Below are positions 2 to 14,253 of a stretch of 14,253 nucleotides of DNA, piece by piece. Within the stretch, counting starts at the first letter, position 1. Every line of letters begins with the position of its first letter. The notes under the pieces are model-generated. The model was given only the letters and a program-made list of their open reading frames with translations, made no database searches and was not told the origin of the DNA. The DNA comes from Ruminococcus difficilis (GTDB lineage: Bacteria > Bacillota_A > Clostridia > Oscillospirales > Acutalibacteraceae), in NCBI RefSeq assembly GCF_016680995.1, contig NZ_JAEQMG010000067.1, positions 1 to 14,253 of the forward strand, in the 5' to 3' direction. Both the position numbers and the translations under genes were made by a program.

Positions 2-3000
2 GGCAACTTCGTGCTCAAAACCTCGCCCGAAAGCGACGAGCCCGCCGGTGTTCCCATTGTCGGCAAAGCGAAAGACTACACATGGGAAGCAACCCTCATT
101 GACGAAACGCATCGCGCGCTCATCCGTTACAACGGAAACGACTATATATGTGACATACGCTTTAAAGGAGAATCCACGCTCCTCGATCGGATCTATCCGA
201 AAGAGATCGTACTCGACAGCGCCTCCACCCTCGGCGTTGTTCCGATCCGCACAGAGGCGTACAGCATCGATACTGGCGTGTACGGCGACAGCATCACGCT
301 GGTCAACGCGCGCTCGGTCAATTTCTCCGTAGATTTTGACTCGCGCAATATCAGCGCGGATAAGCCCGTCAACCTCGCGCGCTGGAGCTTTGTCGGAGAA
401 AACGGTATGCTCCGCAGCAGCGCGGATATCCCTGTTGCCAACGGCTCCTCCACGGCATCATACTCCTGTGTCGTGATGGAAAAAGCTAAGCCCGGCGACC
501 ATATGTTTATCGAATTCTACAACAAGGGCTATGACAGCTCCTCTAATGTCCGCTATACCCCTTACGGCAAGTATGAGGTAGGCTACACCTTTGTCAGCGC
601 GAACATCGACAAGGTCATGTCCTATATGCCCGATATCGGCTTCTATGACGATGAGGGCCCTGCCGAAACCGGCTCCGACCTCGCAGCGACCGGCGCCGAT
701 CTCTCCGCGACCGGAGCGCCTCATTACAGCAAGCTGCCCTCCGCGCCGGGCATCGGCCCGATCAGCCCGATGTTCTCTATCTACGGATTCCTGCCGACCT
801 ACAGCGATACCGCGACAGGTCAGAAGGATCAAAAGACCGGCAAGGATCTGTACTGCCTTGAGATCGGCGTACAGGTCAGCATCGCAAGAACCGATACCGC
901 TGAGAAAAAGGGAACATGGGGCGCTGCCAGCGTAGCGAAGCAATGGCAAAAGCTCTCCGACATCATCACCAAGAGTCCCGGCGAGCTCTGCCAGAACCTG
1001 CAGACCAGCACGAAGATCAGCATTACCATCAGCTTTGCGTATCAGCTGGAATACTATACGACCGACGACGGAGCGCGCTGCTATACGGCGAGCGTCTTCC
1101 TGCTCGGCGGAAAGCTCGGCATACGGATCTCGATCCCGTTCACCGTCGTGGCGATCCCGTGCTTCGTCTACTTTGATATCTCCGCCGACAACGTCGGATA
1201 TCTTGTCCATATGCCCAACGACAAAACGGACGGCTACTGGAAGTCCTCTATGCTGCACAACAGCTACTATTATGATACACACGGCGAATTCTCTCAGAAT
1301 TTCAAGATACAGATGGGCGTCGGCATCGGCTTTGACGGTCTGGCGGCGATCGGAGGTCATATCGACTTCGGATTGGTATCCCGGATCAGCGGAACCAATC
1401 ACGGAAAGATGACCTGCTCCGTAGCGGGCGGCGTTTACGCGCAGCTGCTCTTCTTCAAGGTCGATAAAACATGGAAGATCAAGGAGAAGGTGCTGTTGGA
1501 TACCGACGCGAAGCTCGCCTCGGTCGGCGCGAACCTTCTCAATCAGGAGGGCGGCGATCTGCTGGCGGACACCAAGCTCTCCGATCTCACTCTTGCCGAG
1601 GCGTCGGACGTCTATGACGACGACTTCAACAGAGATAAAGAGATCGCGGCCACCGGCTCCGACGGTCAGGCGATCTTCAGTCACGAGACCTATGCCGAGA
1701 AGAACACCGCCCAGATGTCGCCTGTCATCGGTCAGCTCTCACAGGATCGTTATCTGATCGCTTCCGTCATGAACGCGGATAATGAAAAATTCGGTCTCAG
1801 ATACTATATCTATGATACCGCAACCAACGAGATCGAGGAAAAAGGCGATCCCATTGATGAAGTGATCGAAGACAACGATTTATCGCTTGAGGATGAGAGA
1901 GTACAGAGATTGTCGGAATGCAACGATCTCATCGGCGACGTCAGCATCATCGACTGCGACGATAAGCTGCTTCTCGTCTGGGAGAGCTGTACCGTTGAAG
2001 ATTACCAGAGCGCTTCGGTAGACAGCGCGCTGCGTTCCTTCAAGATCGCGGCTGTCGTCTATGATAAAGAGACCGACAAGTTTACCGATTTTGATATCGT
2101 CGACACTAAACCCAACTCCCTGCCCGACCGACTCCGCGGCGTGTACAACCCGTTCGGCGGAACCGTGCATTTATTCTACAACAGCATCGACGTATCCAAT
2201 GTACAGAGCGACACGACTTTGCAGCAGCTCAACAACCTGCCGATCTCGCTCAACACCTGCTCCGTCGACCTTCACGACAGCCGTCCGAGCTTCACTGAGC
2301 CCGACAAGCTGGATATCCACGGCAACACCCTCACGGATTATGATGTTGCCCTTTACGGGGATGAGGTACTGGTGTCCCTGATCAGCGCCGACAAAAACTC
2401 TCTTACGGTCGAAAAATCGCTGACGTCCTCGGATTATAATGAAGAGAACTACGGTACAAAGAACAAGATGTATCTTGACCGCTATTCCGAGGAGCAGGAT
2501 GGATCGCTCGGCATCGAGGATTCCATCATGACAGCCGATGAGGATCTTGTTACAGCGAACCCGGAGTTTGTCAAGCTCCGTTATAAGGGCGATGAAAACA
2601 CCCTGCTCTTCTTCAAGTGTAACGGGCGCTACGGCTATCAGAATATTGAGAATCTGTACAGCCAGTGCGAGCACGAGAACTGGAGCGACACGCTGGTCGG
2701 CGACGCGATGAAGCCCGAATATATCACTGACGACGAGGATCATACCGTCGGCGAGGACTTCAGGGTATACGCCGGAGAAGACGGCTCGCTGTACGCGTTG
2801 TGGACGCAGTCCGAGGGCGCTCAGCAGCAGATCCGCGGACGACAGTTCCAGGTCGACTCGGTCGAAGAGATCGACAAAGCGGCTGTGACCGACAATGAAA
2901 ACAATGTTCAGTTCGGTCCGAACAATACGCCGATGACCCAACAGCTCGACAAGCCGATCCATATTCTGCACGGCTTCTGGGGCAACAAGGCGTATCTGAC

Positions 3001-4438
3001 GACCGGCGGCAACAAGGAAGAAGGAGCCGATACCGGTTACTATAAGGGTAAGTTCGACGCATTCGTTATCAACAAGGACAACATCCTGAGCGTATACAAT
3101 TCCTTCGACTACGATTTCGGCGATAAAGAGGAAGGCACCGGAATGAAGGCGATCAACAACCGCTTCGTCATCTCGGAGTTTGATATCAATTCCGACTATT
3201 ATCTCGGTGTGGATTACGAAGACCCGATCACGGTCAGCGACGATCTGCCTACCCCCGGCGAAACCATCAAAATCAAAGCAAAAGCTGAAAACGGCGGCTT
3301 CTCCAACGGCCGTGACGTCAAGCTGGCGCTTATAAAAGCCGGACAGAGTGAAGAGGTGGGCTCGGTCACATATCCCGTATGGCTTGCCGGAGAAGAGAAG
3401 GAAGCCGAGTTCGAGTACACCGTACCGAAGGACGCCGATCTCGCGAATGAGCCGATCCTGTTCTACTATCAGATCGAAGAAAACGGAGAAAGGAAGTATC
3501 GCTCCGAGTCCGTTTCCCTGACCAGCTCGCCGCGTCTGTCGATCGATCTGGCATACGCCGATCCCGAACAGCTGTTCACCGACGATAACGATACCACCTG
3601 CTACCATGTCACCGCGACCGTTACCAATACCGGTAACGCGCCGTATGAGGGCGGCGATGAGCTCGACTTCATCTTCAACGACATGGCGGCGCAGGCGGAC
3701 GTCATGAATCGCGACGTGCCTGACGTCGACCCGTTCTATATCAATTACGGCGGTATCGAGATCCCCGAGATCGGCGTCGGTTCCGGTGTGGAGCTCAGCT
3801 TTGTCAGCGACGATATCCCCGAAAGCATCTTTGATAAATACGGCACAAATTCGGCGAATCTCAGGCTGGCGATCACGCCCAAGGACGGTATCGGCTGGAC
3901 TGAGGTCAAGGGCGATGAGCCGTACAACTTCCTCGACGAGTTGGGTATCGGACAGTTCGTCAAGCCCGTTCCCAAGGAGGTCGCCGCGGTATCCGCGGAG
4001 GCAGTCACCGTTCCGCTCGGCTCCGAACGCTTTATCATGCCGACTGTCACTCCTGCCTCGGCGGCGTCTGAGGCGAAGTACACCTATTCCACAGAGGACG
4101 ACGACGTCATCACCGTGGATGAAAACGGTCTGGTAAAGGGTATCGCCCCGGGTACCGGTGTGGTCACCGTCAGCTGCGGCAGCGTCAGCACAGATGTTGA
4201 GATCACTGTCACCGCAGGCGCCCTGCTTCTCGGCGACGCCAATCTCAGCGGAGAGGTCGATATCATCGACGCGACGACCATCCAGCGTCATGATGTGCAT
4301 CTTCTCACGCTGCTCGGTACGGCGCTGCAGCTGTCCGACGTCGATGGGGACGGAGAGGTCACGATCATCGACGCGACATGGATCCAGCGCTGGGCGAACA
4401 AGATGACAGCGCCCGAGGGCATCGGCAAACCGATCTGA
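2..4438 (+). CDS. Giant dockerin-bearing multidomain protein, C-terminal part (5' end outside window)
   Basis: The frame is open to the left edge, so the start and any signal peptide are missing; the GTG at 11 is not a credible start. About 1478 residues are visible (numbered from that GTG). Residues 1-230 are beta-rich. A low-complexity TGSDLAATGADLSATGA stretch follows near 222-237. Residues ~325-490 show alternating strand patterns. Residues ~555-1060 repeat 'hydrophobic-W/F' blades (LLLVWESC, TVHLFYNS, SLYALWTQ, TLLFFKC) that suggest a beta-propeller. Two CARDB-like domains (~1075-1300) and a Big_2-like Ig domain (~1322-1402, ending in ENGLVKGIAPGTGVVTV) come next. Residues ~1405-1466 are a type I dockerin with two calcium loops (DANLSGEVDIID and DVDGDGEVTIID), each followed by an IQR motif. 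The dockerin implies binding to a cohesin on a scaffoldin or cell surface. No catalytic domain was recognised; polysaccharide binding or attachment is inference. A hairpin at 4488-4519 follows. Confidence 0.85.
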   Translation, partial: GNFVLKTSPESDEPAGVPIVGKAKDYTWEATLIDETHRALIRYNGNDYICDIRFKGESTLLDRIYPKEIVLDSASTLGVVPIRTEAYSIDTGVYGDSITLVNARSVNFSVDFDSRNISADKPVNLARWSFVGENGMLRSSADIPVANGSSTASYSCVVMEKAKPGDHMFIEFYNKGYDSSSNVRYTPYGKYEVGYTFVSANIDKVMSYMPDIGFYDDEGPAETGSDLAATGADLSATGAPHYSKLPSAPGIGPISPMFSIYGFLPTYSDTATGQKDQKTGKDLYCLEIGVQVSIARTDTAEKKGTWGAASVAKQWQKLSDIITKSPGELCQNLQTSTKISITISFAYQLEYYTTDDGARCYTASVFLLGGKLGIRISIPFTVVAIPCFVYFDISADNVGYLVHMPNDKTDGYWKSSMLHNSYYYDTHGEFSQNFKIQMGVGIGFDGLAAIGGHIDFGLVSRISGTNHGKMTCSVAGGVYAQLLFFKVDKTWKIKEKVLLDTDAKLASVGANLLNQEGGDLLADTKLSDLTLAEASDVYDDDFNRDKEIAATGSDGQAIFSHETYAEKNTAQMSPVIGQLSQDRYLIASVMNADNEKFGLRYYIYDTATNEIEEKGDPIDEVIEDNDLSLEDERVQRLSECNDLIGDVSIIDCDDKLLLVWESCTVEDYQSASVDSALRSFKIAAVVYDKETDKFTDFDIVDTKPNSLPDRLRGVYNPFGGTVHLFYNSIDVSNVQSDTTLQQLNNLPISLNTCSVDLHDSRPSFTEPDKLDIHGNTLTDYDVALYGDEVLVSLISADKNSLTVEKSLTSSDYNEENYGTKNKMYLDRYSEEQDGSLGIEDSIMTADEDLVTANPEFVKLRYKGDENTLLFFKCNGRYGYQNIENLYSQCEHENWSDTLVGDAMKPEYITDDEDHTVGEDFRVYAGEDGSLYALWTQSEGAQQQIRGRQFQVDSVEEIDKAAVTDNENNVQFGPNNTPMTQQLDKPIHILHGFWGNKAYLTTGGNKEEGADTGYYKGKFDAFVINKDNILSVYNSFDYDFGDKEEGTGMKAINNRFVISEFDINSDYYLGVDYEDPITVSDDLPTPGETIKIKAKAENGGFSNGRDVKLALIKAGQSEEVGSVTYPVWLAGEEKEAEFEYTVPKDADLANEPILFYYQIEENGERKYRSESVSLTSSPRLSIDLAYADPEQLFTDDNDTTCYHVTATVTNTGNAPYEGGDELDFIFNDMAAQADVMNRDVPDVDPFYINYGGIEIPEIGVGSGVELSFVSDDIPESIFDKYGTNSANLRLAITPKDGIGWTEVKGDEPYNFLDELGIGQFVKPVPKEVAAVSAEAVTVPLGSERFIMPTVTPASAASEAKYTYSTEDDDVITVDENGLVKGIAPGTGVVTVSCGSVSTDVEITVTAGALLLGDANLSGEVDIIDATTIQRHDVHLLTLLGTALQLSDVDGDGEVTIIDATWIQRWANKMTAPEGIGKPI

Positions 4439-4530: not shown

Positions 4531-4568
4531 AAAAAAAGATGCCGCCAAACTGTCCGTTTTGCGGCATC
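4531..4568 (-). terminator. Intrinsic terminator of the rex-hydA2 operon
   Basis: Read on the minus strand, arms 4556-4568 and 4538-4550 (GATGCCGC core) pair over 13 bp with one mismatch around a 5-nt loop. Seven T residues follow (4537-4531). It lies 29 bp after the hydA2 stop and is a textbook Rho-independent terminator for the minus-strand gene cluster. Confidence 0.88.
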
Positions 4569-4596
4569 CCTTTTCATATACAGCGTTAGTTGTAAA

Positions 4597-6030
4597 CTAA
4601 CTCAAAATCGAAATAGCGTCGAGGATGGATTTTTCCATCGCTTCCTGTCCGTATTTATCGACCTGCATTTTGTCCTTTGCGCCGTGGGTCAGACAGCCCG
4701 CGCCGCCGATACAGCCGCCGACGCACGCCATTCCCTCGATGAAGTTCGCTTTCAGCACATTTTTGCTCTTCAACGTCAGCGCTTTTTTACATTCCTCAAT
4801 GCCGTCGCAGGAGATCGCGTTCAGCTCAAAATCATCCAGACCCTGCTCCTTCAAGCCCTCGGCAACCGCGTCGGCCAATCCGCCGCAGCGGGCAAATATC
4901 CTGCCGAAGTACGAGGCGTTGTCGAGCACGCCCTCTTCGAGCGTGGTGAGGTCGATATCTCGGCTGTCAAACAGCGCCTGTAATTCCTCAAACGTCAGCA
5001 CGGAATCGACATAGGGCTTGACGGTATCGAGCTGTGCCTCCATCTTTTTCGCCGTGCACGGTCCGATGAAAACGATCTTCGCGTTCGGCGTGGTATCCTT
5101 GATGTACTTGGCGATCGTCGCCATCGGCGAAAGATTGTGAGAGACATTCGGCTTGAGCTCCGGGAAGGATTTGTTGATGTATTCAACAAAGGCAGGACAG
5201 CAGGAGCTGGTCAAGAAGCCCGTTTCCGCAAGCTCCTTTGATTCCGCCTGCGCGACCATATCTGCGCCGAGAGCGGCTTCTACGACCGTATGGAAGCCCA
5301 GCTTTTTCAGTCCGGTGATCACCTGACCGAGCTTTGCGTAAGTAAACTGGCTGGAGATCGACGGCGCGACAACGGCATAGATCTTATAGTTCTTTCCCTG
5401 CTCGCATTTCTTCAGCAGATCGATGACGTTCAGAATAAACGACTTGTCGCTGATAGCGCCGAACGGACACTGATAAACACACGCGCCGCATGAGATGCAC
5501 TTTGAATCGTCGATCTGCGCCGCGTTCTCGTCATTGATGTTGATCGCCTTGATCTTGCAGGCGATCTGGCAGGGACGCTTGCGGTTGGCGATCGCGGAAT
5601 ACGGGCATACCTTGGCGCATTGACCGCATTCCACACATTTGCTTTTATCGATATGCGCCACATGATTGTGGTCAAAGGAGATCGCGCCGCGGGGGCAAAC
5701 ATCCTCACAGCGATGTGCCAGACAGCCTCGGCAGGAATCCGTGACCTCATAACCGGCGGCAGGACATTCGTCGCAGGCGATGTCGATCACCTCGATGACG
5801 TTTTGACGATCGGAGTTGCCGCCCATGGCGATCTTGACGCGTTCGGCGAGGATCGCCCTCTCCTTATAGACGCAGCAGCGCATGGTCGGCGTTTTGCCGG
5901 GAACGATGATCTTCGGGATATCCAGTACATTCTCCAACAGCGTGTCATTCCATGCCTGACGCGCCACCTCGCGCAGTACCTTGTATTTCAGATACTGCAC
6001 CTTGGTATCAAATTTTCTTAATTTATTCAT
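4597..6030 (-). CDS. hydA2: Monomeric ferredoxin-type [FeFe]-hydrogenase (group B-like, HydA2)
   Basis: 477 aa, cytoplasmic; expected to reduce protons with electrons from reduced ferredoxin (or the reverse). The N-terminal part carries extra cysteines (86, 89) and three cysteine clusters: C100/C103/C108/C112, C132/C135/C138/C142 and C178/C181/C184/C188. H-cluster motifs follow: L1 TSSCCPAF (C277, C278), L2 IGPCTAKKME (C325) and L3 EGMACVGGCIGGAG (C436, C440). All four H-cluster cysteine ligands and the proton-relay cysteine position are kept, so it should be catalytically active. The F after CCPA, the G before PC in L2 and the short length point to the group B lineage rather than CpI-type group A. 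There is no NADH-binding subunit nearby, so an electron-bifurcating HydABC complex is unlikely. The ATG at 6030 has AGGTGA 7 nt upstream, and that site overlaps the TAG stop of the phosphatase gene, so translation is probably coupled. Last gene of the operon. Confidence 0.9.
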   Translation of the reverse strand: MNKLRKFDTKVQYLKYKVLREVARQAWNDTLLENVLDIPKIIVPGKTPTMRCCVYKERAILAERVKIAMGGNSDRQNVIEVIDIACDECPAAGYEVTDSCRGCLAHRCEDVCPRGAISFDHNHVAHIDKSKCVECGQCAKVCPYSAIANRKRPCQIACKIKAININDENAAQIDDSKCISCGACVYQCPFGAISDKSFILNVIDLLKKCEQGKNYKIYAVVAPSISSQFTYAKLGQVITGLKKLGFHTVVEAALGADMVAQAESKELAETGFLTSSCCPAFVEYINKSFPELKPNVSHNLSPMATIAKYIKDTTPNAKIVFIGPCTAKKMEAQLDTVKPYVDSVLTFEELQALFDSRDIDLTTLEEGVLDNASYFGRIFARCGGLADAVAEGLKEQGLDDFELNAISCDGIEECKKALTLKSKNVLKANFIEGMACVGGCIGGAGCLTHGAKDKMQVDKYGQEAMEKSILDAISILS

Positions 6031-6040
6031 AAGCGTTCAC

Positions 6041-7213
6041 CTAAAAATAACTGACCTTGATGCGCTTGCCCATCAGCTTGAGCGCCTTTGAAAGCTCCTG
6101 CACCAAATTCATTTTAATGTTGAAATTGATCGGCAGATCGGGATTCTGATGCGCCGGGTTGACTGCCTTGCCGACATAAAAATTGATATCTGTCGCTTCT
6201 TCAAACAGCAGACGGCTGATCAGCGAAGCGCCGTCATTACCATAGCCCCATTCCTCATAGGAATCGTTGTTTTGGATATAGTCGTTGGCGTATTCCACCA
6301 CCTTGTTGACGGTGATCACGCCCTCGGTCACCAGATCGACGCCCTCAAGCTCCGCGATCGGCGGCACATCGCTGCGCTCAAAGCTGAGCTTCGGTCGAAG
6401 CGGCTTTCGCAGCCACTTCGCGGCAATCGAGGAGGTCGTGCCTCCGCAGATGATATGCTTGCCCTCCTTGGAGAAGAAAAGGCTCATCATCCGATCACAG
6501 TCGTCCCTGTCGGAGGGAGGGCCGAAGAGGATATTCATCGGCACGCGCTTGCGGATCTTGATCACGCAGGCGGTAGCGTCATCGCCCGGCTTCCCGCCGT
6601 AGAGGCGATTGACCTCGTCGATCAGCATGGTGGAAAGCACCTTGGCGGTGAAGCCGCCCTGCGACATCCCCAGCATATAGTCGGCGATATCCTCCCGTTT
6701 CCAGCCGAAGTTATAGGCGATGCCGATCCCCGCGTGAGGACAGCCGTCGCTCATGGCAATGATGATGTCGTTCTCCATCAAGCGGATCACGGACTTGTAG
6801 ATCTTTTTTTCGCCGATATTCAGCTCGGTTTTGTCGTAATCGAAAAGAGCGCCGTCACGGATATAAATAATATGAGGATTATCATATTGGATCAGCTCGA
6901 CGGTGCGGGAGTTGATGATGTGCATAATGGTGAAGGTGGAGTACGCAACGCCGCGTACCGAGCAGACAGGGAGCGTTGCGGCAATGGTAGACACACATTC
7001 CTCCAGCGGCAAACCCTCCGCCATCATGGTCGAGATGATCTTGGAGGTCAGCGTGGAAAGGATACTCGCCTTGACGCCGCTGCCCATACCGTCCGCCAGC
7101 ACGATCACGGTGGAATCAGCGCCCTGTTCGACGATATCGATATGGTCGCCGCAAAGCTGTTCGCCTTCATGGTTAATGCTTTTGTAGCCGATCTCAGCAC
7201 ATAAATCATTCAT
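6041..7213 (-). CDS. SpoIIE/PP2C-family serine/threonine phosphatase with extra C-terminal domain
   Basis: 390 aa. Residues ~1-222 are a SpoIIE-type PP2C domain: LADGMGSG at 39-46 (D41 metal ligand), MSDGCPHAG near 154-162 (D156) and PGDDATA at 209-215 (D211, D212). This fold removes phosphate from serine or threonine using Mn2+ or Mg2+. Residues ~226-390 form a second domain not recognised, with ICGGTTSS near 255-262 and a conserved-looking YGNDGASL at 324-331. The ATG at 7213 lies inside the end of hydS (8-bp overlap, ATGAATGA), with AAGGAG about 10 nt upstream, so it is co-translated with hydS. In R. albus 7 a phosphatase gene belongs to the same hydS/hydA2 transcription unit. It probably opposes the kinase at 9559-10308; the phosphoprotein target is not identifiable, and no anti-sigma or STAS gene is in view. 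Confidence 0.85.
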   Translation of the reverse strand: MNDLCAEIGYKSINHEGEQLCGDHIDIVEQGADSTVIVLADGMGSGVKASILSTLTSKIISTMMAEGLPLEECVSTIAATLPVCSVRGVAYSTFTIMHIINSRTVELIQYDNPHIIYIRDGALFDYDKTELNIGEKKIYKSVIRLMENDIIIAMSDGCPHAGIGIAYNFGWKREDIADYMLGMSQGGFTAKVLSTMLIDEVNRLYGGKPGDDATACVIKIRKRVPMNILFGPPSDRDDCDRMMSLFFSKEGKHIICGGTTSSIAAKWLRKPLRPKLSFERSDVPPIAELEGVDLVTEGVITVNKVVEYANDYIQNNDSYEEWGYGNDGASLISRLLFEEATDINFYVGKAVNPAHQNPDLPINFNIKMNLVQELSKALKLMGKRIKVSYF

Positions 7214-8882
7214 CCTTGATCGACTCCTTCAGCTTAGACAGCGCGATTTTTGTTTCGGCGGCGGTTTCGCCCAGCAGTGAAGCGATCTCCTGTACGATAC
7301 GCATTTGCTTATCCACCACCTTGTCGGCGACCTCCACCGTCTGACGGCTGATGTCCTCTTTGCGCTGACGCGCGGTTTCCTCTTCGGTGACGTCGGTCAT
7401 GATGCAGATCAGCATATTGCTTTCTCTGTCGGGAACGACCGTCATTTCCACATAGCGGTCATATTCGGCTAAGAAGGTGCGTTCGTTGTAAATGCCGCGA
7501 TGGGTGGACTGCACGTTCAGGAACGGCAGCGGGTCAAGGATGCGCACCACCTGAGAGCCCATGACGTCCGACGCGGCGCGCAGGTTCAGCATTTTCTGCG
7601 CCGCGGAGTTGATCTGCTGTACCTCCAGCAGGTCGTTGACGACGATCAGACCGTTGGGCGTGTTTTTGACGATCGTATCCGAAAAGCTCTCCGCCTTGTC
7701 CTTCAAGAACGGCAGACACATGGAGATCTCCGCCTTGCCCTGATAGATGGCGACCGCCTTTTCACGGCAGGTATCGTAGCCGCAGGAACCGCAGTTCAGC
7801 TCCTGAGAGGGCTTGAATTTACCCATTTGCCGCAGGATCTGGTTGATCTCATAATCGGAGGGCTTTGCCGAGCGCGGCGCGATGAACTCGAACACCTTCT
7901 TCATCTCGACCGCCTCGGGCTGATCGACCTCAAAATCGTGCTTGCCGGCATATTTGGCGACCGCCGTATAGTCACTGACCGGGTTCAGCCGCTGCTTTTC
8001 CATCACGGGACCGCCGACGCAGCTTCCGGCGCAGGCGCTCATTTCAATAAAAGCTTTGTGAACATTACCTGCCTCGATGTCCTTCAGGGCGGCGATGCAG
8101 TTTTCTACGCCGTCGATCGCAAAGTAGGTATAATCCTGCGCCTTTTGCGACATCGTTTTCAGAATACCGCCGGTCGTCGGAAAAAACCGCGCAAGGCTGT
8201 TTTCCGTGCGGTCGGTTTTCTGCTCGAGGGTGATGTTTTCCTCTTTCAGCCACGCGGACAGCTCCTCGAAGGTCAGCGTGGCGTCAACAATGCCCTCATA
8301 ATGCTCCGCCTCGTCCTTCTTGGCGACGCAGGGGCCGATAAAGACGGTTTTGGCGTTGGGGATCCGCGACTTGATGTCCTTGCAGTGCGCCTGCATCGGC
8401 GACAAAACGTCGGCGAGATACGGCAGACAGCTCGGAAAATATTTTTGGATCAGCAAATTCACGGAATGACAGCAGGAGGAGATCACGATATCCCTGTCCT
8501 CTTCCTGCAGGATCCGGTCGTATTCACGCTTGACGATCGTCGCGCCGACAGCGGTTTCCTCAACATCGTAAAAGCCGAGCTCCTTCAGCGCGGCGCGCAT
8601 GGCTTCGATGCCCACGCCGGTGTAGTTGGCGACAAAGGACGGCGCGAGGCTGACGACCACGGGAGCGCCGCTTTGCAGCAGAACGCGAACCTTTTCGGTC
8701 TCATCAACGATTTGCTTGGCGTTTTGCGGACACACCACAAAGCAGTGACCGCAGAGAATACATTCGTTGCCGATGATATGCGCCTGATTTCCGGAAAAGC
8801 GGATGGACTTTACCGGACAGTGGCGAATACATTTATAGCAGTTTTTGCAATTTGATTTTTTTAATGTCAAACAGTTCGACAT
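7206..8882 (-). CDS. hydS: Sensory [FeFe]-hydrogenase with PAS domain (HydS, group C-like)
   Basis: 558 aa from the ATG at 8882. A GTG at 8900 would give 564 aa but has no ribosome binding site, while AGTGAGCGG precedes the ATG. Domain order: two [4Fe-4S] motifs (C12/15/18/22 and C41/44/47/51); an H-cluster domain with L1 SSCCHS (~135-140), L2 IGPCVAKKDE (C185) and L3 EMSACAGSCVGG (C284, C288); a four-cysteine cluster motif (C364, C367, C372, C389); a PAS domain (~400-505, start PNGLIVVNDLLEV); and a helical tail (~506-558). The usual TSCCP proline is replaced by His, as in sensory hydrogenases with altered turnover. There is no histidine-kinase or methyl-acceptor domain, so the PAS output must act on a partner. 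The stop overlaps the phosphatase start, making that protein the obvious partner. It probably reports H2 or ferredoxin redox state; this is inferred from family and context. Confidence 0.88.
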   Translation of the reverse strand: MSNCLTLKKSNCKNCYKCIRHCPVKSIRFSGNQAHIIGNECILCGHCFVVCPQNAKQIVDETEKVRVLLQSGAPVVVSLAPSFVANYTGVGIEAMRAALKELGFYDVEETAVGATIVKREYDRILQEEDRDIVISSCCHSVNLLIQKYFPSCLPYLADVLSPMQAHCKDIKSRIPNAKTVFIGPCVAKKDEAEHYEGIVDATLTFEELSAWLKEENITLEQKTDRTENSLARFFPTTGGILKTMSQKAQDYTYFAIDGVENCIAALKDIEAGNVHKAFIEMSACAGSCVGGPVMEKQRLNPVSDYTAVAKYAGKHDFEVDQPEAVEMKKVFEFIAPRSAKPSDYEINQILRQMGKFKPSQELNCGSCGYDTCREKAVAIYQGKAEISMCLPFLKDKAESFSDTIVKNTPNGLIVVNDLLEVQQINSAAQKMLNLRAASDVMGSQVVRILDPLPFLNVQSTHRGIYNERTFLAEYDRYVEMTVVPDRESNMLICIMTDVTEEETARQRKEDISRQTVEVADKVVDKQMRIVQEIASLLGETAAETKIALSKLKESIKDE

Positions 8883-8911
8883 CTGTCCGCTCACTTTCAC
8901 TAAAGTTTTTG

Positions 8912-9074
8912 TTATGCTAATATTCCATTAAACGCTTTAACAAATTTATTGGCGGGATATTTCGCAGAGCAAGGCGGACGACGCAGGCAGGCTGGCGCCT
9001 GTCAAGGAGGACAACACAGCTATGCGGAATATAACGCAATCAATGTTAATGTGTTTTAATGAATATTAGCATAA
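8912..9074. repeat. 163-bp imperfect palindrome, MITE-like, between the second ferredoxin gene and hydS
   Basis: The ends are an exact 14-bp inverted repeat, TTATGCTAATATTC (8912-8925) and GAATATTAGCATAA (9061-9074). The similarity continues inward with small gaps through ~8970 on one side and ~9019 on the other; the inner block 8953-8970 against 9019-9036 matches at 14 of 18 positions. The centre (8971-9018) is GC-rich and holds a small hairpin (CAGGC, TGGC, GCCTG at 8988-9001) and an AAGGAGG. No clear target-site duplication is visible. The last six codons and stop of the ferredoxin gene lie inside one arm. It could be a non-autonomous mobile element or a large transcribed stem-loop that attenuates, processes or stabilises the mRNA between the ferredoxins and hydS. 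Only one copy is in the window. Confidence 0.65.
8917..8944 (-). promoter_or_regulatory. Possible internal promoter for hydS with a Rex-like half site
   Basis: On the minus strand, TTGTTA (8943-8938) or TTTGTT (8944-8939) could be a -35 element, 15 or 16 bp before TATTAG (8922-8917). RNA would start near 8910, about 28 nt before the hydS ATG. The stretch begins TTGTTAA, the left half of the clostridial Rex operator (TTGTTAA-N4-TTAACAA), but the right half matches poorly. It overlaps the odd palindrome TTAAACGCTTTAA (8928-8940). It sits in one arm of the 163-bp inverted repeat. Weak evidence. Confidence 0.25.
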
Positions 9075-9304
9075 ATTTCGTTTTCAAAAAAGCTGTCAAA
9101 GGTTTCGGGCGTCACACCCGTAACGGTCTCGTCGTCGATCCGGACGGTAACACCCTCGCGGTTGCAGCGTCCGATACAGAAGCTTCCCGCAAGAGTGATC
9201 TTGTCCGCCAGACCGCGTTCCTCAACAGCTCTTTGGAACAGTTCGACGACCTTTTCCGAGCCCTTGAGATGGCACGACGAGCCAACGCAGATCTGTATGT
9301 TCAT
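9056..9304 (-). CDS. Thioredoxin-like [2Fe-2S] ferredoxin, second of a tandem pair
   Basis: 82 aa, cytoplasmic, a stand-alone domain of the NuoE C-terminal / thioredoxin-like ferredoxin fold. The four cluster ligands are C6 and C11 (CVGSSC) and C43 and C47 (CIGRC), the canonical C-x4-C...C-x3-C arrangement for one [2Fe-2S] cluster. The usual NuoE N-terminal helical domain is absent and no NuoF-like partner is nearby, so it is a free electron carrier or a small subunit docking on another protein. Its ATG overlaps the TAA of the preceding ferredoxin by one base (TAATG), so translation is coupled. About 37 of 80 positions match the first copy by eye, a clear tandem duplication. Its last six codons fall inside the 163-bp palindrome, so its C-terminus (IYANIH) differs from the sister's. 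Confidence 0.85.
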   Translation of the reverse strand: MNIQICVGSSCHLKGSEKVVELFQRAVEERGLADKITLAGSFCIGRCNREGVTVRIDDETVTGVTPETFDSFFENEIYANIH

Positions 9305-9546
9305 TATGATACCTTTGCCTTTATGTTTGTTTCAAAGAATTCGTCGACGCTTTCCGGAGATACCGAATGGAAGGCGTCGTCAACGGTGACGCAAACTCCC
9401 TTTTGGCACTGTCCCATACAGAAGGTGCCGCCCAGCTCCACCTTGTCGCTGAGATCGTTTTGCGCAATAAGATTCTGCAGCTGCTCTACTACCTGACGCG
9501 AGCCCTTGATGTGGCAGGAGGAGCCGATACATACGGTTACTTTCAT
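9304..9546 (-). CDS. Thioredoxin-like [2Fe-2S] ferredoxin, first of a tandem pair
   Basis: 80 aa. Same fold as its neighbour: C6/C11 in CIGSSC and C43/C47 in CMGQC are the [2Fe-2S] ligands, and an extra C52 lies just after. The ATG at 9546 has AGGAG about 8 nt upstream, and this Shine-Dalgarno overlaps the stop of the kinase gene (TAAGGAG), tying its translation to the kinase. Related domains occur as HydC/HndA-type subunits of hydrogenases and as small shuttle ferredoxins. Placed before hydS and hydA2, it probably passes electrons to or from one of them; this is inference, since no partner interface can be read from sequence. Confidence 0.85.
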   Translation of the reverse strand: MKVTVCIGSSCHIKGSRQVVEQLQNLIAQNDLSDKVELGGTFCMGQCQKGVCVTVDDAFHSVSPESVDEFFETNIKAKVS

Positions 9547-9558
9547 GCTGAATTCTCC

Positions 9559-10308
9559 TTATTCGTACTCGACGACGTTTGCCCAGCTGAGCAGGAGCTC
9601 GCGCTCCTCTTCGTTGCCCTTAACGGACTGTGAAGCCGCTACGATCGGCATCCACTTCTGGACATACTGCTTAGCGGTGTCGCTCTTTTTGCAGAACAGG
9701 TCGAGGTACTGCTTTGCGGTTTCCGTATCGCCCTTGAGCCAGAACAGCAGATAGGTTCTTGCCGCGTCTGCCGCGCCGTTGCCCTGTGTCGCGTGCGACC
9801 AGTCGATGATGTAGGGAGTGCCGTCCTTCGCGATGATGATGTTGGACGGATTGAAGTCGCCGTGGCACACCTTGTTGTGCTTGGGCATACCGTTCAGTCT
9901 GGTGTGGAGGTCATAGCGGGTGGTAGCGTCCAGCTCCGCCATGCTGATTTTTTGGTTCATTTTATCCTTGAGCTTGTTGAGCAGGGGACAGGTTTTGCTG
10001 AGGACCGTCAGCTGCAGGTCAACAAACAGATCGAGGTACTCATCCTTCTTGTCGGGGTCGTCATCCATCATCTGCTGCAGGGTCTTTCCTTCGATAAAAT
10101 CGGACACGATAGCCCATTTTCCGTCGATCTTCGTTACCTCGTGGATCTTCGGGATATTCAGTCCCGTTTCCTCGATACGCGCCTGATTGAGCGCTTCGTT
10201 CAGGACGTCCGCCTTGGAAAAGTCTTCGTTGAATACCTTTACGCAAAGGTCGCCGTCACGATAAACGGTTTTAGCGGTTCTTACCGCGATTACTCTGTCA
10301 AGTGTCAT
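9559..10308 (-). CDS. Aminoglycoside-phosphotransferase-fold kinase (TIGR02172-like)
   Basis: 249 aa, cytoplasmic. The protein-kinase-like fold is shown by a lysine in VKVF (K24), the catalytic loop HGDFNPSN (149-156, with base D151) and the metal-binding IIDW (167-170, D169), followed by a helical C-lobe. These are the signatures of the APH/choline-kinase branch. An antibiotic-resistance role is unlikely: it sits in a redox operon, 15 bp after adhE and 12 bp before the ferredoxin pair. The matching gene in the R. albus 7 hydS/hydA2 unit was annotated as a serine/threonine kinase, which would pair naturally with the PP2C-type phosphatase downstream. Whether it phosphorylates a protein or a small molecule cannot be told from sequence. 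The ATG at 10308 has GGGAGG 9 nt upstream. Confidence 0.8.
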   Translation of the reverse strand: MTLDRVIAVRTAKTVYRDGDLCVKVFNEDFSKADVLNEALNQARIEETGLNIPKIHEVTKIDGKWAIVSDFIEGKTLQQMMDDDPDKKDEYLDLFVDLQLTVLSKTCPLLNKLKDKMNQKISMAELDATTRYDLHTRLNGMPKHNKVCHGDFNPSNIIIAKDGTPYIIDWSHATQGNGAADAARTYLLFWLKGDTETAKQYLDLFCKKSDTAKQYVQKWMPIVAASQSVKGNEEERELLLSWANVVEYE

Positions 10309-10323
10309 CTTTTTGTTCCTCCC

Positions 10324-13047
10324 TTACAGATTTTTATGGATGCCGTTCTTTGCTCTGCGAAACGACTGCTTGATGTCTTTTTTATCGAGCTTTCCGCCGA
10401 GTTGTTTTTCGTCGGGTGTATCGGTCTCCTCAAAGGTCTTGCCGTAATACGCGTTCAGATACATCTGCTTGATCTCGCTCATCAGCGGATAACGGGGGTT
10501 AGCGCCCGTGCACTGATCGTCAAACGCCTGTACGGTCATATCGTCCAGTCTGTCGAGGAAGTCCTGCTCGTCGGGAACGTATTCTTTAATGGTGGATTTG
10601 ATGCCGATCTTCGCCTTGAGCTCGTCGATCTTAGCGATCAGGTTGTTAAGCTTTTCGCTGTCGTCCTTTCCGCCTACGCCGAGATAATCGGCAACCTCCG
10701 CATAGCGCGCGAGGGTATGCGGATGATCGTACTGCGGGAACGTACCCATCTTTGCGGGAACCTCAGCCGCGTTGAAGCGAAGCACCTCGTCGATCATCAG
10801 GGCGTTAGCCACGCCGTGAGGCAGGTGGTGGAAGGCGCCGAGCTTATGCGCCATAGAGTGGCATACGCCGAGGAAGGCGTTGGCAAACGCCATACCCGCC
10901 ATTGTGGCGGCATTCGCCATCTTCTCTCTGGCTTCGGCGTCGTTCAGACCGTTATCGTAGGCTCTGGGCAGATATTCGAAGATCACCTTCAAGGCTCTGA
11001 GCGCCAGGCCGTCGGTATAATCCGTCGCCAGCATGGAAGCATAAGCCTCGAGCGCGTGGGTAACGGCGTCGATACCGGAGGCGGCGGTCAGCCCCTTGGG
11101 AGCGGTCATATGGAAATCGGTGTCGACGATCGCCATATTCGGCAGCAGCTCGTAATCCGCGAGCGGATACTTGACGCCGGTCTTTTCGTCGGTGATAACG
11201 GCAAAGGGCGTTACCTCGGAGCCGGTGCCGGCAGAGGTCGGGATCGCGATAAAGTAAGCCTTTTCGCCCATCTTCGGGAAGGTGTAGATCCTCTTGCGGA
11301 TATCGGAGAAGCGCATCGCCATATCCATAAAGTTGACTTCGGGATGCTCATAGAGTACCCACATGATCTTTGCCGCGTCCATCGCGGAGCCGCCGCCGAG
11401 AGCGATGATGGTATCCGGCTCAAAGGACTTCATCTGCTCGGCGCCTCTGATCGCGCAGGCGAGGGTGGGATCGGGCTCAACATCCGCGAAGGAGGTGTAC
11501 TGGATCCCCAGCTCGTTGAGCTTATCGGTGATGGGCTTTGTATAGCCGTTCTTATAAAGGAAGCTGTCGGTCACAAGGAACACGCGCTTCTTGTTCATGA
11601 CATTTTTCAATTCATCGAGGGCAACAGGCATGCAGCCCTTCTTGATATAGATCTTTTCGGGTGCTCTGAACCAAAGCATATTCTCTCTCCTTTCGGCAAC
11701 TGTTTTGATGTTGATCAGGTGCTTGACGCCGACGTTTTCGCTGACGGAGTTTCCGCCCCACGAGCCGCAGCCGAGGGTGAGCGAAGGCGCGAGCTTAAAG
11801 TTATACAGGTCGCCGATACCGCCCTGAGAGGACGGAGTATTTACCAGGATACGGCAGGTTTTCATACGTGCCGCGAATTCATCGAGCTTGTCCTTTTCGT
11901 TGACAGCGTCAATATAGATGGAGGAGGTATGGCCGTAGCCGCCGTCCGCGACAAGCTGCTCCGCCTTGTCGAACGCGTCCTGAATGTCCTTAGCGCGGTA
12001 CATAGCGAGAACGGGGCTGAGCTTTTCGTGAGCGAATTCCTCGCTGAGATCAACGGATTCAACCTCGCCGATCAGGATCTTCGTGCCGGCGGGAACCTTT
12101 ACGCCTGACAGCTCGGCGATTTTAGCCGCCTTTTGACCTACGATCTTCGCGTTGAGAGAGCCATTGATGATGATGGTTTTGCGAACCTTATCCAATTCGT
12201 CGCCCTTTAAGAAGTAACAGCCGCGCGCCGCGAATTCCTGTTTGACGGCGTCGTAGATGCTGTCGAGTACGATCGTGGACTGCTCGGATGCGCAGATCAT
12301 ACCGTTGTCAAAGGTTTTGGAGTGGATGATCGAGTTGACAGCCAGAGTGACGTCAGCGCTTTCGTTGATGATCGCGGGTGTGTTGCCCGCGCCGACGCCG
12401 AGTGCCGGCTTACCGCTGGAATAAGCCGCTTTGACCATGCCGGGACCGCCGGTAGCCAGAATGATGTCTACTTCCTTCATCAAAAGGTTCGTCATATCCA
12501 GTGAGGGAACGTCGATCCACGCAATGATATCTTCGGGAGCGCCCGCCGCTATCGCAGCCTCCAAAACGACCTTTGCGGCTTCGATCGTGCTTTTCTTCGC
12601 GCGGGGATGCGGGCTGATAATGATCGCGTTTCTGGTTTTCAGACAGATCAGCGCTTTAAAAATAGCGGTAGAAGTGGGGTTGGTCGTAGGAATGACCGCG
12701 CCTACTACGCCGATCGGCTCGGCGATCTTCTTTGTGCCGAACGCCTTGTCCTCTTCTATCACGCCGCAGGTCTTGGTGTCGCGGTACTGATTGTAGATAT
12801 ATTCGCTGGCGTAGTGGTTCTTGATGACCTTATCCTCTACGATACCCATACCGGTTTCTTCCACCGCCATTTGGGCGAGAGGGATCCTTGCCTGGTTTGC
12901 CGCGGTAGCAGCCGCTAAAAAGATAGCGTCGACCTGCTCCTGCGTGTAGCCGGCAAAGATCTTCTGTGCCGCTCTGGCTCTGTCGAGCGCGGCTTCCAGT
13001 TTTTCTACGCCGTCAACGATCTCATAATTTTTCTTTTTTGTTTCCAT
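10324..13047 (-). CDS. adhE: Bifunctional acetaldehyde-CoA / alcohol dehydrogenase AdhE
   Basis: 907 aa, the usual full length. It reduces acetyl-CoA to acetaldehyde and then ethanol, oxidising two NADH, and normally forms filaments (spirosomes). The N-terminal aldehyde dehydrogenase half (~1-440) has GAGNTPA at 219-225 and the catalytic cysteine C252 (NGMICASEQS). A linker leads to the iron-type alcohol dehydrogenase half (~460-875), with nucleotide motif GGGSAMD (551-557) and Fe ligands D660, H664 (GIDAVTH), H730 and H744 (HHLPHG). All active-site residues are present, so both activities are expected. The basic tail after 875 is not conserved in my reading. The ATG at 13047 has AGGAGGAG upstream; the gene starts 15 bp after the rex stop, so expression should follow NADH through Rex. 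Confidence 0.96.
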   Translation of the reverse strand: METKKKNYEIVDGVEKLEAALDRARAAQKIFAGYTQEQVDAIFLAAATAANQARIPLAQMAVEETGMGIVEDKVIKNHYASEYIYNQYRDTKTCGVIEEDKAFGTKKIAEPIGVVGAVIPTTNPTSTAIFKALICLKTRNAIIISPHPRAKKSTIEAAKVVLEAAIAAGAPEDIIAWIDVPSLDMTNLLMKEVDIILATGGPGMVKAAYSSGKPALGVGAGNTPAIINESADVTLAVNSIIHSKTFDNGMICASEQSTIVLDSIYDAVKQEFAARGCYFLKGDELDKVRKTIIINGSLNAKIVGQKAAKIAELSGVKVPAGTKILIGEVESVDLSEEFAHEKLSPVLAMYRAKDIQDAFDKAEQLVADGGYGHTSSIYIDAVNEKDKLDEFAARMKTCRILVNTPSSQGGIGDLYNFKLAPSLTLGCGSWGGNSVSENVGVKHLINIKTVAERRENMLWFRAPEKIYIKKGCMPVALDELKNVMNKKRVFLVTDSFLYKNGYTKPITDKLNELGIQYTSFADVEPDPTLACAIRGAEQMKSFEPDTIIALGGGSAMDAAKIMWVLYEHPEVNFMDMAMRFSDIRKRIYTFPKMGEKAYFIAIPTSAGTGSEVTPFAVITDEKTGVKYPLADYELLPNMAIVDTDFHMTAPKGLTAASGIDAVTHALEAYASMLATDYTDGLALRALKVIFEYLPRAYDNGLNDAEAREKMANAATMAGMAFANAFLGVCHSMAHKLGAFHHLPHGVANALMIDEVLRFNAAEVPAKMGTFPQYDHPHTLARYAEVADYLGVGGKDDSEKLNNLIAKIDELKAKIGIKSTIKEYVPDEQDFLDRLDDMTVQAFDDQCTGANPRYPLMSEIKQMYLNAYYGKTFEETDTPDEKQLGGKLDKKDIKQSFRRAKNGIHKNL

Positions 13048-13062
13048 TGTTCTCCTCCTGAT

Positions 13063-13671
13063 TTAATCAATTTGCATACTGTGCAGATGTGCTAAGGATA
13101 ATGCCAGGTTTTCGTTTTGCAGCGCGATGCTCTGCGGGACCTTCAGCATAACGGGAGAAAAATTCCATATCGCTTCGATCCCGCTTGCGATCAGTTGATC
13201 GCAGACCGATTGCGCCGCGCTTGCCGGAACGGTGATAATGCCGATTTTGACGTCCTGGATCTGACAAAACCGCCGCAGCTGTTCCATGGGATATACGGGC
13301 TTGCCGGACGTATTCCGGCTTTTCTCCGCATCCTTGTCAAACGCCGCTATGATCTCCATCCCGTAATCACGGAAGCCGCTGTAATCCATCAAAGCGGCTC
13401 CGAGCTTACCCGCGCCGACCAAAACAGCCGGCGTGACCTTGTTGACGCCCAGCGCGGCTTTCAGCGAAGCCGTCAGCGCGTCGGTATCATAGCCTGTTTT
13501 GGGCTTTCCTTTTCCGCACACAAGGCTCAGATCCTTGCGCACCAAAACCTCACCCAAGTCGAGTGCTCTTGCGATTGCCGGCGCCGAGATATGTTCGGTT
13601 GTTACGCTTTCCACATAATGCAGATAAGCCGGCAGCCGACCGAGCGTTGCTTTTGAAATTGCGGACTGCAA
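13063..13671 (-). CDS. rex: Redox-sensing transcriptional repressor Rex
   Basis: 202 aa. The N-terminal winged helix (~1-75) holds the family motifs KATLGRLPAYLHYV and VRKDLS. The Rossmann domain (~78-190) has the NADH motif VGAGKLG (85-91) and an acidic strand end AAFD (D112), followed by a C-terminal domain-swap helix. Rex binds DNA when NAD+ dominates and leaves it when NADH rises, which here would release adhE and the hydrogenase genes when reducing power accumulates. It is the first gene of the operon, so autoregulation is likely. The start is TTG at 13671; no better in-frame ATG exists, and a strong AGGAGG lies 7 nt upstream. A canonical clostridial Rex operator (TTGTTAA-N4-TTAACAA) is not visible at its promoter. 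Confidence 0.93.
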   Translation of the reverse strand: MQSAISKATLGRLPAYLHYVESVTTEHISAPAIARALDLGEVLVRKDLSLVCGKGKPKTGYDTDALTASLKAALGVNKVTPAVLVGAGKLGAALMDYSGFRDYGMEIIAAFDKDAEKSRNTSGKPVYPMEQLRRFCQIQDVKIGIITVPASAAQSVCDQLIASGIEAIWNFSPVMLKVPQSIALQNENLALSLAHLHSMQID

Positions 13672-13698: not shown

Positions 13699-13727
13699 AT
13701 TATAGCGTTATTTTCTCCCTATGTGAA
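13699..13727 (-). promoter_or_regulatory. Sigma-70 type promoter of the rex operon
   Basis: On the minus strand, TTCACA (13727-13722) and a perfect TATAAT (13704-13699) are separated by exactly 17 bp. The expected RNA start is near 13692, giving a leader of about 20 nt before the rex start. It is the only strong promoter seen for the eight-gene minus-strand cluster. Confidence 0.8.
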
Positions 13728-13732
13728 TAACG
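13706..13732. promoter_or_regulatory. Dyad overlapping the -35 and spacer of the rex promoter
   Basis: CGTTATT (13706-13712) and AATAACG (13726-13732) form a 7-bp perfect inverted repeat with 13 bp between. It covers the -35 box and most of the spacer, where a repressor would block RNA polymerase. The half-site spacing does not fit the known Rex operator, so the binder is unknown. Confidence 0.45.
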
Positions 13733-13737
13733 AAAAA

Positions 13738-13768
13738 GGTATATCGGTAATATACTTATCGATATACC
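13738..13768. promoter_or_regulatory. 31-bp dyad just upstream of the rex promoter
   Basis: GGTATATCGGTAA (13738-13750) and TTATCGATATACC (13756-13768) are inverted over 13 bp with one mismatch around TATAC. The centre is about 61 bp upstream of the predicted RNA start, a usual place for an activator. On the minus strand it is followed by five T, so an AT-rich terminator protecting the promoter from read-through is an alternative. Confidence 0.6.
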
Positions 13769-13944: not shown

Positions 13945-14253
13945 TTATTGCAGACATTTGCTTTTAGAGTTGTACAGCTCGGTCATGAATTCCCGGTCGA
14001 GCTTGCTGAGCCGGTAATCCTTGCGGCATATCAGCATATCCCGGTAGAGCTTTTGGTTATCGGGACACGGCTTTTGCACCAGACCAAAGCCCGAGATGAT
14101 ATCGTCGGGCAGGGGAGAAACCCACATGAACGTATCCGGATTATGAGCGAGCAGATGGAACTGACCGCCGCGCTCAAAAACATAGATGTTGCGGGAGCAG
14201 TTGACGGTATGCTCATCCTTTTGCACCGCTGCCGCGGGCAAAGAGGGAACATA
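13945..14253 (-). CDS. C-terminal end of a probable LysR-type regulator (start outside window)
   Basis: 102 residues are visible in a frame open to the right edge; a TTG at 14241 is not a convincing start. The pattern resembles the last part of a LysR effector-binding domain: a 'position in the pocket' stretch (QFHLLAHNPDTFMWVSPLP), then GFGLVQKP, a strand LYRDMLICRKDYRLSKLDREF, and a closing helix (FMTEL). The short Lys/Cys-rich tail ends NSKSKCLQ. No helix-turn-helix can be seen because the N-terminus is missing, so the family call is tentative. A terminator follows directly, so it is not co-transcribed with rex. Confidence 0.5.
   Translation of the reverse strand, partial: YVPSLPAAAVQKDEHTVNCSRNIYVFERGGQFHLLAHNPDTFMWVSPLPDDIISGFGLVQKPCPDNQKLYRDMLICRKDYRLSKLDREFMTELYNSKSKCLQ

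Follow-up and report, generated by a model that had tools for sequence, protein, structure and literature searches.

An adhE and [FeFe] hydrogenase operon of Ruminococcus difficilis with a LysR-type regulator gene upstream and a possible two-module organization

Closest described systems and a two-module reading

Operons that unite alcohol dehydrogenase and hydrogenase genes are of a known kind, and the one described here is a further member. It lies on the minus strand of a 14,253-nt stretch of Ruminococcus difficilis (contig NZ_JAEQMG010000067.1 of assembly GCF_016680995.1), which we analysed whole and call the window. Its eight genes are, in order, rex, adhE, an APH-family kinase gene, two genes for short [2Fe-2S] thioredoxin-like (Trx-like) proteins (trx1 and trx2), hydS for a group C sensory hydrogenase, a SpoIIE/PPM-type phosphatase gene, and hydA2 for a monomeric [FeFe] hydrogenase. 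The operon is close to that of L001, a metagenome-assembled genome from an uncultured Ruminococcus sp.

The nearest described system is an eight-gene cluster of Ruminococcus albus 7, which was 111-fold down in low-H2 co-culture (PMC6776011; this and the other papers are cited from excerpts). Like the window, it holds a ferredoxin hydrogenase, a bifunctional alcohol/aldehyde dehydrogenase, a group C sensory hydrogenase, a phosphatase and further regulatory genes. This is in line with the first-pass annotation of this DNA, which had matched the core of the operon to the R. albus 7 unit. In R. albus 8, all eight genes stand in the window's order. Two features set the window apart from the published description: a dispersed repeat between trx2 and hydS, unlike the R. 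albus cluster, and a LysR-type regulator gene upstream, which the excerpts of PMC6776011 do not mention and which is present in R. albus 8.

The second half of the operon resembles hfsABCD of Thermoanaerobacterium (PMC5707799, PMC11837493), where HfsB is of HydS type, HfsC of phosphatase type and HfsD of HydA2 type. By gene order, HfsA would be the Trx-like protein, and the window's order trx-hydS-phosphatase-hydA2 is that of an hfsABCD-type module on the model of PMC5707799. In the same excerpts, deletion of hfsA or hfsB increased adhE transcripts and ethanol, whereas deletion of hfsC or hfsD did not significantly change adhE. Unlike the window, where everything is in one locus, T. saccharolyticum has adhE and rex elsewhere, by that paper's account of the neighbour of adhE.

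In Clostridium thermocellum, Cthe_0422-0432 were lowered together after furfural (PMC3848806). They share with the window a row of rex, adhE, an "aminoglycoside phosphotransferase", an Fe-S protein, a SpoIIE-type protein and an Fe hydrogenase, and in addition have a NuoE-like gene and more hydrogenase genes. Judging from its annotation, Cthe_0426 would be the HydS of this cluster.

Taken as a whole, the best explanation of the window, to which we give about even chances, is that two separable modules stand behind one LysR-controlled promoter. The first module, LysR gene-(rex)-adhE-kinase, would serve ethanol formation and NADH re-oxidation. The second, [2Fe-2S] Trx-hydS-phosphatase-hydA2, of hfsABCD type, would use ferredoxin to form H2 and is probably also a sensor of H2 or of the redox state. 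The main transcription switch would be the LysR-type regulator, at a box over the -35 element. The genes and their order, conservation, co-occurrence and the promoter motif are results of computation, given below.

Conservation, co-occurrence and the kinase linked to adhE

At the level of gene neighbourhood, we compared the best 80 loci of a longer list from a scan of genome contigs, many of them short. They include R. albus 8 (L071), R. bromii YE282 and Thermoclostridium caenicola. Counting genes on the operon strand, we found the phosphatase gene in 78 loci, a trx gene in 78, hydA2 in 65, the kinase gene in 58, adhE in 44 and rex in 20, and 13 loci had all eight genes. A neighbourhood comparison was one of the checks proposed in the first-pass annotation, and these genes do often occur together.

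For co-occurrence, we used 243 Clostridia genomes, with 90% completeness requested. HydS was counted at E 1e-70 or better, the phosphatase at E 1e-20, and the close AdhE subfamily at 63% identity or more. HydS was found in 75 genomes, the phosphatase in 74, the close AdhE subfamily in 76 and the kinase in 55 (57 less the weak matches in G080 and G245; one of two kinase fragments of G071 was also dropped). HydS and the phosphatase occurred together in 73 genomes, and alone in two and one, respectively. The kinase went with the close AdhE subfamily: 53 genomes had both, two the kinase alone and 23 this AdhE alone (odds ratio 190, p 1.4e-32), and none of the 39 genomes having only the other AdhE subfamily had the kinase. 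The kinase gene was directly 3' of a close-subfamily adhE in 50/60 copies, from 48 genomes, 29 of which lack HydS. Besides its hydS operon, the nearest genome compared has a second adhE-kinase pair elsewhere (G001:C36:14217-17659; 77 and 67% identical).

These counts bear on the model of the first-pass annotation, in which kinase and phosphatase relay the signal of HydS. According to the excerpts of PMC5707799, Zheng et al. also proposed such a model for R. albus. HydS would detect H2 and act through its PAS part on the neighbouring kinase, and the phosphatase would remove the kinase's mark from a common target. Kinase and phosphatase genes do sit in the operon of the window and of many relatives, and kinase and HydS are weakly associated (25 genomes with both; odds ratio 2.3, p 0.012). 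However, HydS is missing from 30 of the 55 kinase genomes and the kinase from 50 of the 75 HydS genomes, while the phosphatase goes with HydS almost without exception. Together with the kinase genes that follow adhE in HydS-less genomes, this left the claim that a kinase/phosphatase pair relays the HydS signal unsupported, and we consider such a relay unlikely.

Some observations weigh against separating the kinase from HydS, and keep part of the relay claim alive. G131 and G148 have the kinase gene beside hydS without a close-subfamily AdhE. L006 and L034, which have rex, trx1, hydS and hydA2, lack both kinase and phosphatase. Moreover, the genomes share ancestry, so the co-occurrence p-values should be read as rough guidance.

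The kinase itself (9559..10308, minus strand) passes the Pfam cut-offs of APH (PF01636, 43 bits, cut-off 23.2) and RIO1 (36.6 bits, cut-off 22), but not that of the Hanks-type Pkinase family (20.1 bits, cut-off 31.7). Its AlphaFold2 model (pLDDT 93.2) had APH(3')-Ia as top Foldseek match (TM 0.68), with APH(4)-Ia and the choline kinase LicA also in the list. Residues H149, D151, N156 and D169, which we take to be catalytic, are invariant in 46 sequences. In all likelihood the protein is an APH-type phosphotransferase and active. The profile scores, and the fold matches to APH and choline kinases, are a further point against the kinase as a signalling partner of HydS.

A related possibility, compatible with the two-module reading, is that the kinase is a small-molecule phosphotransferase without a signalling role, acting for example on a metabolite produced or consumed close to AdhE. 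The fold matches and the position 3' of adhE suggest it, as does the best match among PDB sequences, a choline kinase (E 1e-5). Against it, the second-best match there is to a protein kinase, StkP (E 4.8e-4), and the RIO1 match, to a family of atypical protein kinases, means that a protein substrate is possible; the latter counts in favour of the HydS relay and against the two-module reading. We regard a purely metabolic kinase as a serious candidate, somewhat short of an even chance. Under the two-module reading, the APH-fold kinase would serve AdhE or a nearby metabolite and would not be an obligate counter-enzyme of the phosphatase. A literature search on AdhE phosphorylation gave nothing usable among the matches listed.

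The phosphatase (6041..7213, minus strand; PF07228, 58.9 bits, cut-off 25) has D23, D41, D156, D211 and D212 invariant in 32 sequences; these are presumably the metal-binding residues. Structure matches from VIA-align 2 are largely confined to residues 2-223. The extra C-terminal part (residues ~225-390, 6041-6540 on the minus strand) is highly conserved over the 32 sequences, has no Pfam family, and gave a weak sequence match to phosphoheptose isomerase (E 0.042). HydS and its Trx partners would signal via this phosphatase, whose gene overlaps hydS, to a phosphoprotein.

LysR-type regulator, Rex and the promoter

Upstream of the eight genes, on the same strand, the window has the last 102 aa of a LysR-type protein (13945..14253, cut by the window end), which share 87% identity with the C-terminus of its L003 counterpart. 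The family call rests on full copies in relatives: those at L003:4161-5138 and L080:4805-5749 carry HTH_1 (61.5 and 73.9 bits), and LysR_substrate reached 27.9 bits (cut-off 28) in L003 and was not listed in L080. The gene set of the first-pass annotation was right for the eight genes and missed this ninth one.

In 44 loci, the first gene is complete and 1300 bp or more of upstream DNA is present; a LysR gene was upstream on the same strand in 29 of them, and elsewhere in the locus in two. It was also seen with either module alone: in front of adhE-kinase in five HydS-less genomes (L081-L085), and in L101 and L102 in front of a trx-hydS pair that has neither adhE nor kinase with it. Among the 243 genomes, 38 were listed with the regulator; 27 of them reached 200 bits, and HydS or the close AdhE subfamily was present in 25 of the 27. 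The LysR gene and operon-type rex are also neighbours outside the adhE-kinase-hydS context: as LysR-rex in L088, and in L089 and L090 as rex-LysR followed by an open reading frame (ORF) whose match to AdhE, at 41-43%, is limited to the alcohol dehydrogenase half.

We trained a 45-bp motif on 37 LysR-adjacent promoters, thinned from 43 by shared words. When each promoter was left out together with similar ones, 31/37 scored at least 10 bits, versus 1/555 shuffles. In the window, the presumed LysR operator covers 13721-13765 (minus strand), with a left-out score of 38.3 bits. It holds most of an inverted repeat at 13738-13768, and the -35 element of the promoter (13699..13727, minus strand; -35 TTCACA, -10 TATAAT) lies inside it. 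R. albus 8, with its LysR gene, had a left-out score of 29.2 and no Rex box.

As controls, we scored loci without a same-strand LysR gene using the full motif, and 4/44 reached 10 bits. Two of these (L025 and L037) have a LysR gene elsewhere in the locus, the genome of L086 has one on another contig, and in L058 the contig starts ~1 kb ahead of adhE. Of the control stretches, at least four (L039, L056, L057 and L079) are not promoters, since they start inside an operon cut at the contig end. Rex-first loci without LysR (L096, L119 and L120) score below 10 bits; thus, the box follows LysR rather than Rex.

Against LysR control of these operons stand the 13/44 loci without a LysR gene in the stretch and the 6/37 LysR-adjacent promoters that fall below 10 bits in the leave-out test (L052, L081, L083, L101, L102 and L117), among them both trx-hydS loci without adhE. 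In addition, the motif training was seeded with a hand-typed consensus-like site, so the leave-out test is not fully independent. The LysR link, its box and the AdhE-kinase linkage were not found in our literature search, which did not reach Zheng et al. 2014.

The first-pass annotation had taken Rex (13063..13671, minus strand; NF003994, 237.1 bits, cut-off 130) as the NADH reader of the operon. As a full alternative, Rex would be the main switch, and NADH would free the promoter from it and turn the operon on. In favour of this, rex is the first gene, and Rex boxes with at most two mismatches to the canonical palindrome were present in 15/29 related promoters, where 0.25 would be expected; the near relative L003 has a perfect box over -10. 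However, the box was found in 10/11 adhE-first loci versus 5/16 rex-first loci (and 0/2 others). No canonical Rex box was found at the window promoter, where the best site has five mismatches, nor in R. albus 8, where the best has six. The sole three-mismatch site in the whole window is at the start of hydA2 (0.20 expected).

Because this box is lacking here and rex is the most often absent member of the operon (present in 20/80 loci, contig ends included), the role of Rex is weakened, and we judge it quite unlikely as the main switch. Under LysR control, Rex would contribute a response to NADH in those relatives whose -10 element is covered by a Rex box, and hardly at the window promoter.

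Despite this, the operon Rex may read another site. Among 66 genomes, the operon type (98% identity in G001 and 45-56% in 14 others) is distinct from the ordinary Rex (27-38%), and seven genomes, G001 included, have both. In the rex promoters of L009, L012, L016 and L028, a different inverted repeat over -10, of the type TTCGATA...TATCGAA, was seen by eye in place of the canonical box, and is a candidate site of the operon Rex.

The promoter evidence, together with the reports on R. albus 7, C. thermocellum and hfs, leads us to infer a mechanism in which HydS and the Trx-like proteins sense H2 or redox state and the phosphatase relays this to a phosphoprotein. The LysR-type regulator, on which HydS may or may not act, would bind the box, activate the operon and so carry out the transcriptional switch, with NADH control added by Rex in some lineages and the kinase acting on AdhE or a metabolite close to it. 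The direction of this signalling and the substrates of phosphatase and kinase are parts of the same proposal.

Hydrogenases, operon layout and biological meaning

HydS (7206..8900, minus strand; PF02906 172.6 bits, PF04060 42.4 bits) has the H-cluster-type cysteines C143, C144, C191, C290 and C294 of its H domain in 96/96 sequences, and likewise C370, C373, C378 and C395 of a C-terminal Cx2Cx4Cx16C motif. It matched 36 PDB sequences at E 1e-10 or better, hydrogenases by name. TmHydS and TamHydS share the H domain and the C-terminal motif with it (excerpts of PMC10055695 and PMC8163306). The PAS domain of TmHydS may have a counterpart at residues 408-453, where PF00989 scored 22.0 bits, just under the 22.6 cut-off. 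C143 is at the motif position of the proton-relay cysteine: it is cysteine in 96/96 aligned sequences, unlike TmHydS, which has alanine, and PMC10055695, in excerpt, gives a cysteine in 17% of sensory hydrogenases. According to one review, again in excerpt, it is not known how sensory [FeFe] hydrogenases pass on their signal (PMC11376134).

The Trx-like proteins, trx1 (9304..9546, minus strand; PF01257, 35 bits, cut-off 24.8) and trx2 (9056..9304, minus strand; 34.4 bits), also retain their cysteines: C6, C11, C43 and C47 of trx1 in 85/85 sequences, and the four of trx2 in 62-63 of 63. Column conservation of HydS and these proteins omitted genes with internal stops or short matches. HydA2 (4597..6030, minus strand; TIGR04105, 575.2 bits, cut-off 450) is FeFe_hydrog_B1 by NCBIfam; the excerpts of PMC6776011 place the hydrogenase of the R. 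albus cluster in group A1. AdhE (10324..13047, minus strand) is a bifunctional acetaldehyde-CoA/alcohol dehydrogenase (NF010378, 1396 bits, cut-off 951).

At the level of layout, the ORF listing and the Pfam and NCBIfam profiles bore out eight minus-strand genes of the expected families, as claimed. From rex to hydA2, the spacings are 15, 15, 12, -1, 155, -8 and 10 bp, the -8 being the overlap of the phosphatase gene with hydS. The described gaps of 10-15 bp or overlaps hold for most junctions, and fail between trx2 and hydS. A strong promoter in front was also claimed, and the top promoter-like site of the window does precede rex (TTCACA-17-TATAAT, 11/12 consensus matches), although the scan gave eight sites versus 9.0 expected from shuffles, so their number is not above chance. 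The strong terminator behind the operon was confirmed by folding as a hairpin with a T run (4531..4575, minus strand; -24.4 kcal/mol for 4531-4590), 3' of hydA2; our terminator scan, with a loop rule of 3-8 nt, did not list it. An Rfam scan of the window at gathering scores gave no match. Overall, the operon as first annotated was partly confirmed, and its interpretation partly supported.

The trx2-hydS gap is 155 bp in the window and ~256 bp in L001 (HydS 98% identical), whereas both genes adjoin in L002 and L003 (HydS 91% identical). An overlooked ORF or frameshift was ruled out, since a dispersed repeat accounts for the gap: an inserted copy of it lies at 8913..9073 (minus strand) and overlaps the final codons of trx2. 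The repeat ends in ~19-bp inverted repeats (TATGCTAATATT / AATATTAGCATA in the window), and both arms differ together between the window and L001, so their pairing is kept. Matches were found in six of nine genomes of the same genus (45 in G001, 44 in G005, 3 in G008, 59 in G013, 48 in G018 and 14 in G022), and none in G003, G009 and G011. The repeat is also placed at L001:4500-4800 and in L121-L123, and parts of it occur alone. It looks like a miniature inverted-repeat transposable element (MITE), and might weaken or split the operon transcript. A Rex-like half-palindrome in this gap (four mismatches) is part of the repeat, and we did not count it as a Rex site.

Convergent with the operon, the 5'-cut ORF at 2-4438 (plus strand) has Ig-like domains and a C-terminal type I dockerin by Pfam. 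It is likely a cellulosome-type or dockerin-bearing secreted protein.

At the biological level, the amount of H2 that rumen and gut fermenters release is set by whether they form ethanol or acetate plus H2, and this choice thus bears on methane formation and biofuel yield. For the 111-fold change in R. albus, no transcription factor is named in the excerpts of PMC6776011. A broader proposal, which we offer tentatively and hold to be doubtful as a whole, is that the LysR-type regulator, not Rex, switches the ethanol-H2 operons of these Clostridia (also in R. albus) in response to H2 or redox state, and is possibly the missing output of HydS, and that the kinases adjacent to adhE are a family of dedicated AdhE-partner phosphotransferases existing also without a hydrogen sensor. 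With a conserved regulator and a defined candidate operator, the question becomes directly testable, and reassigning the kinase from HydS to AdhE would make other experiments sensible.

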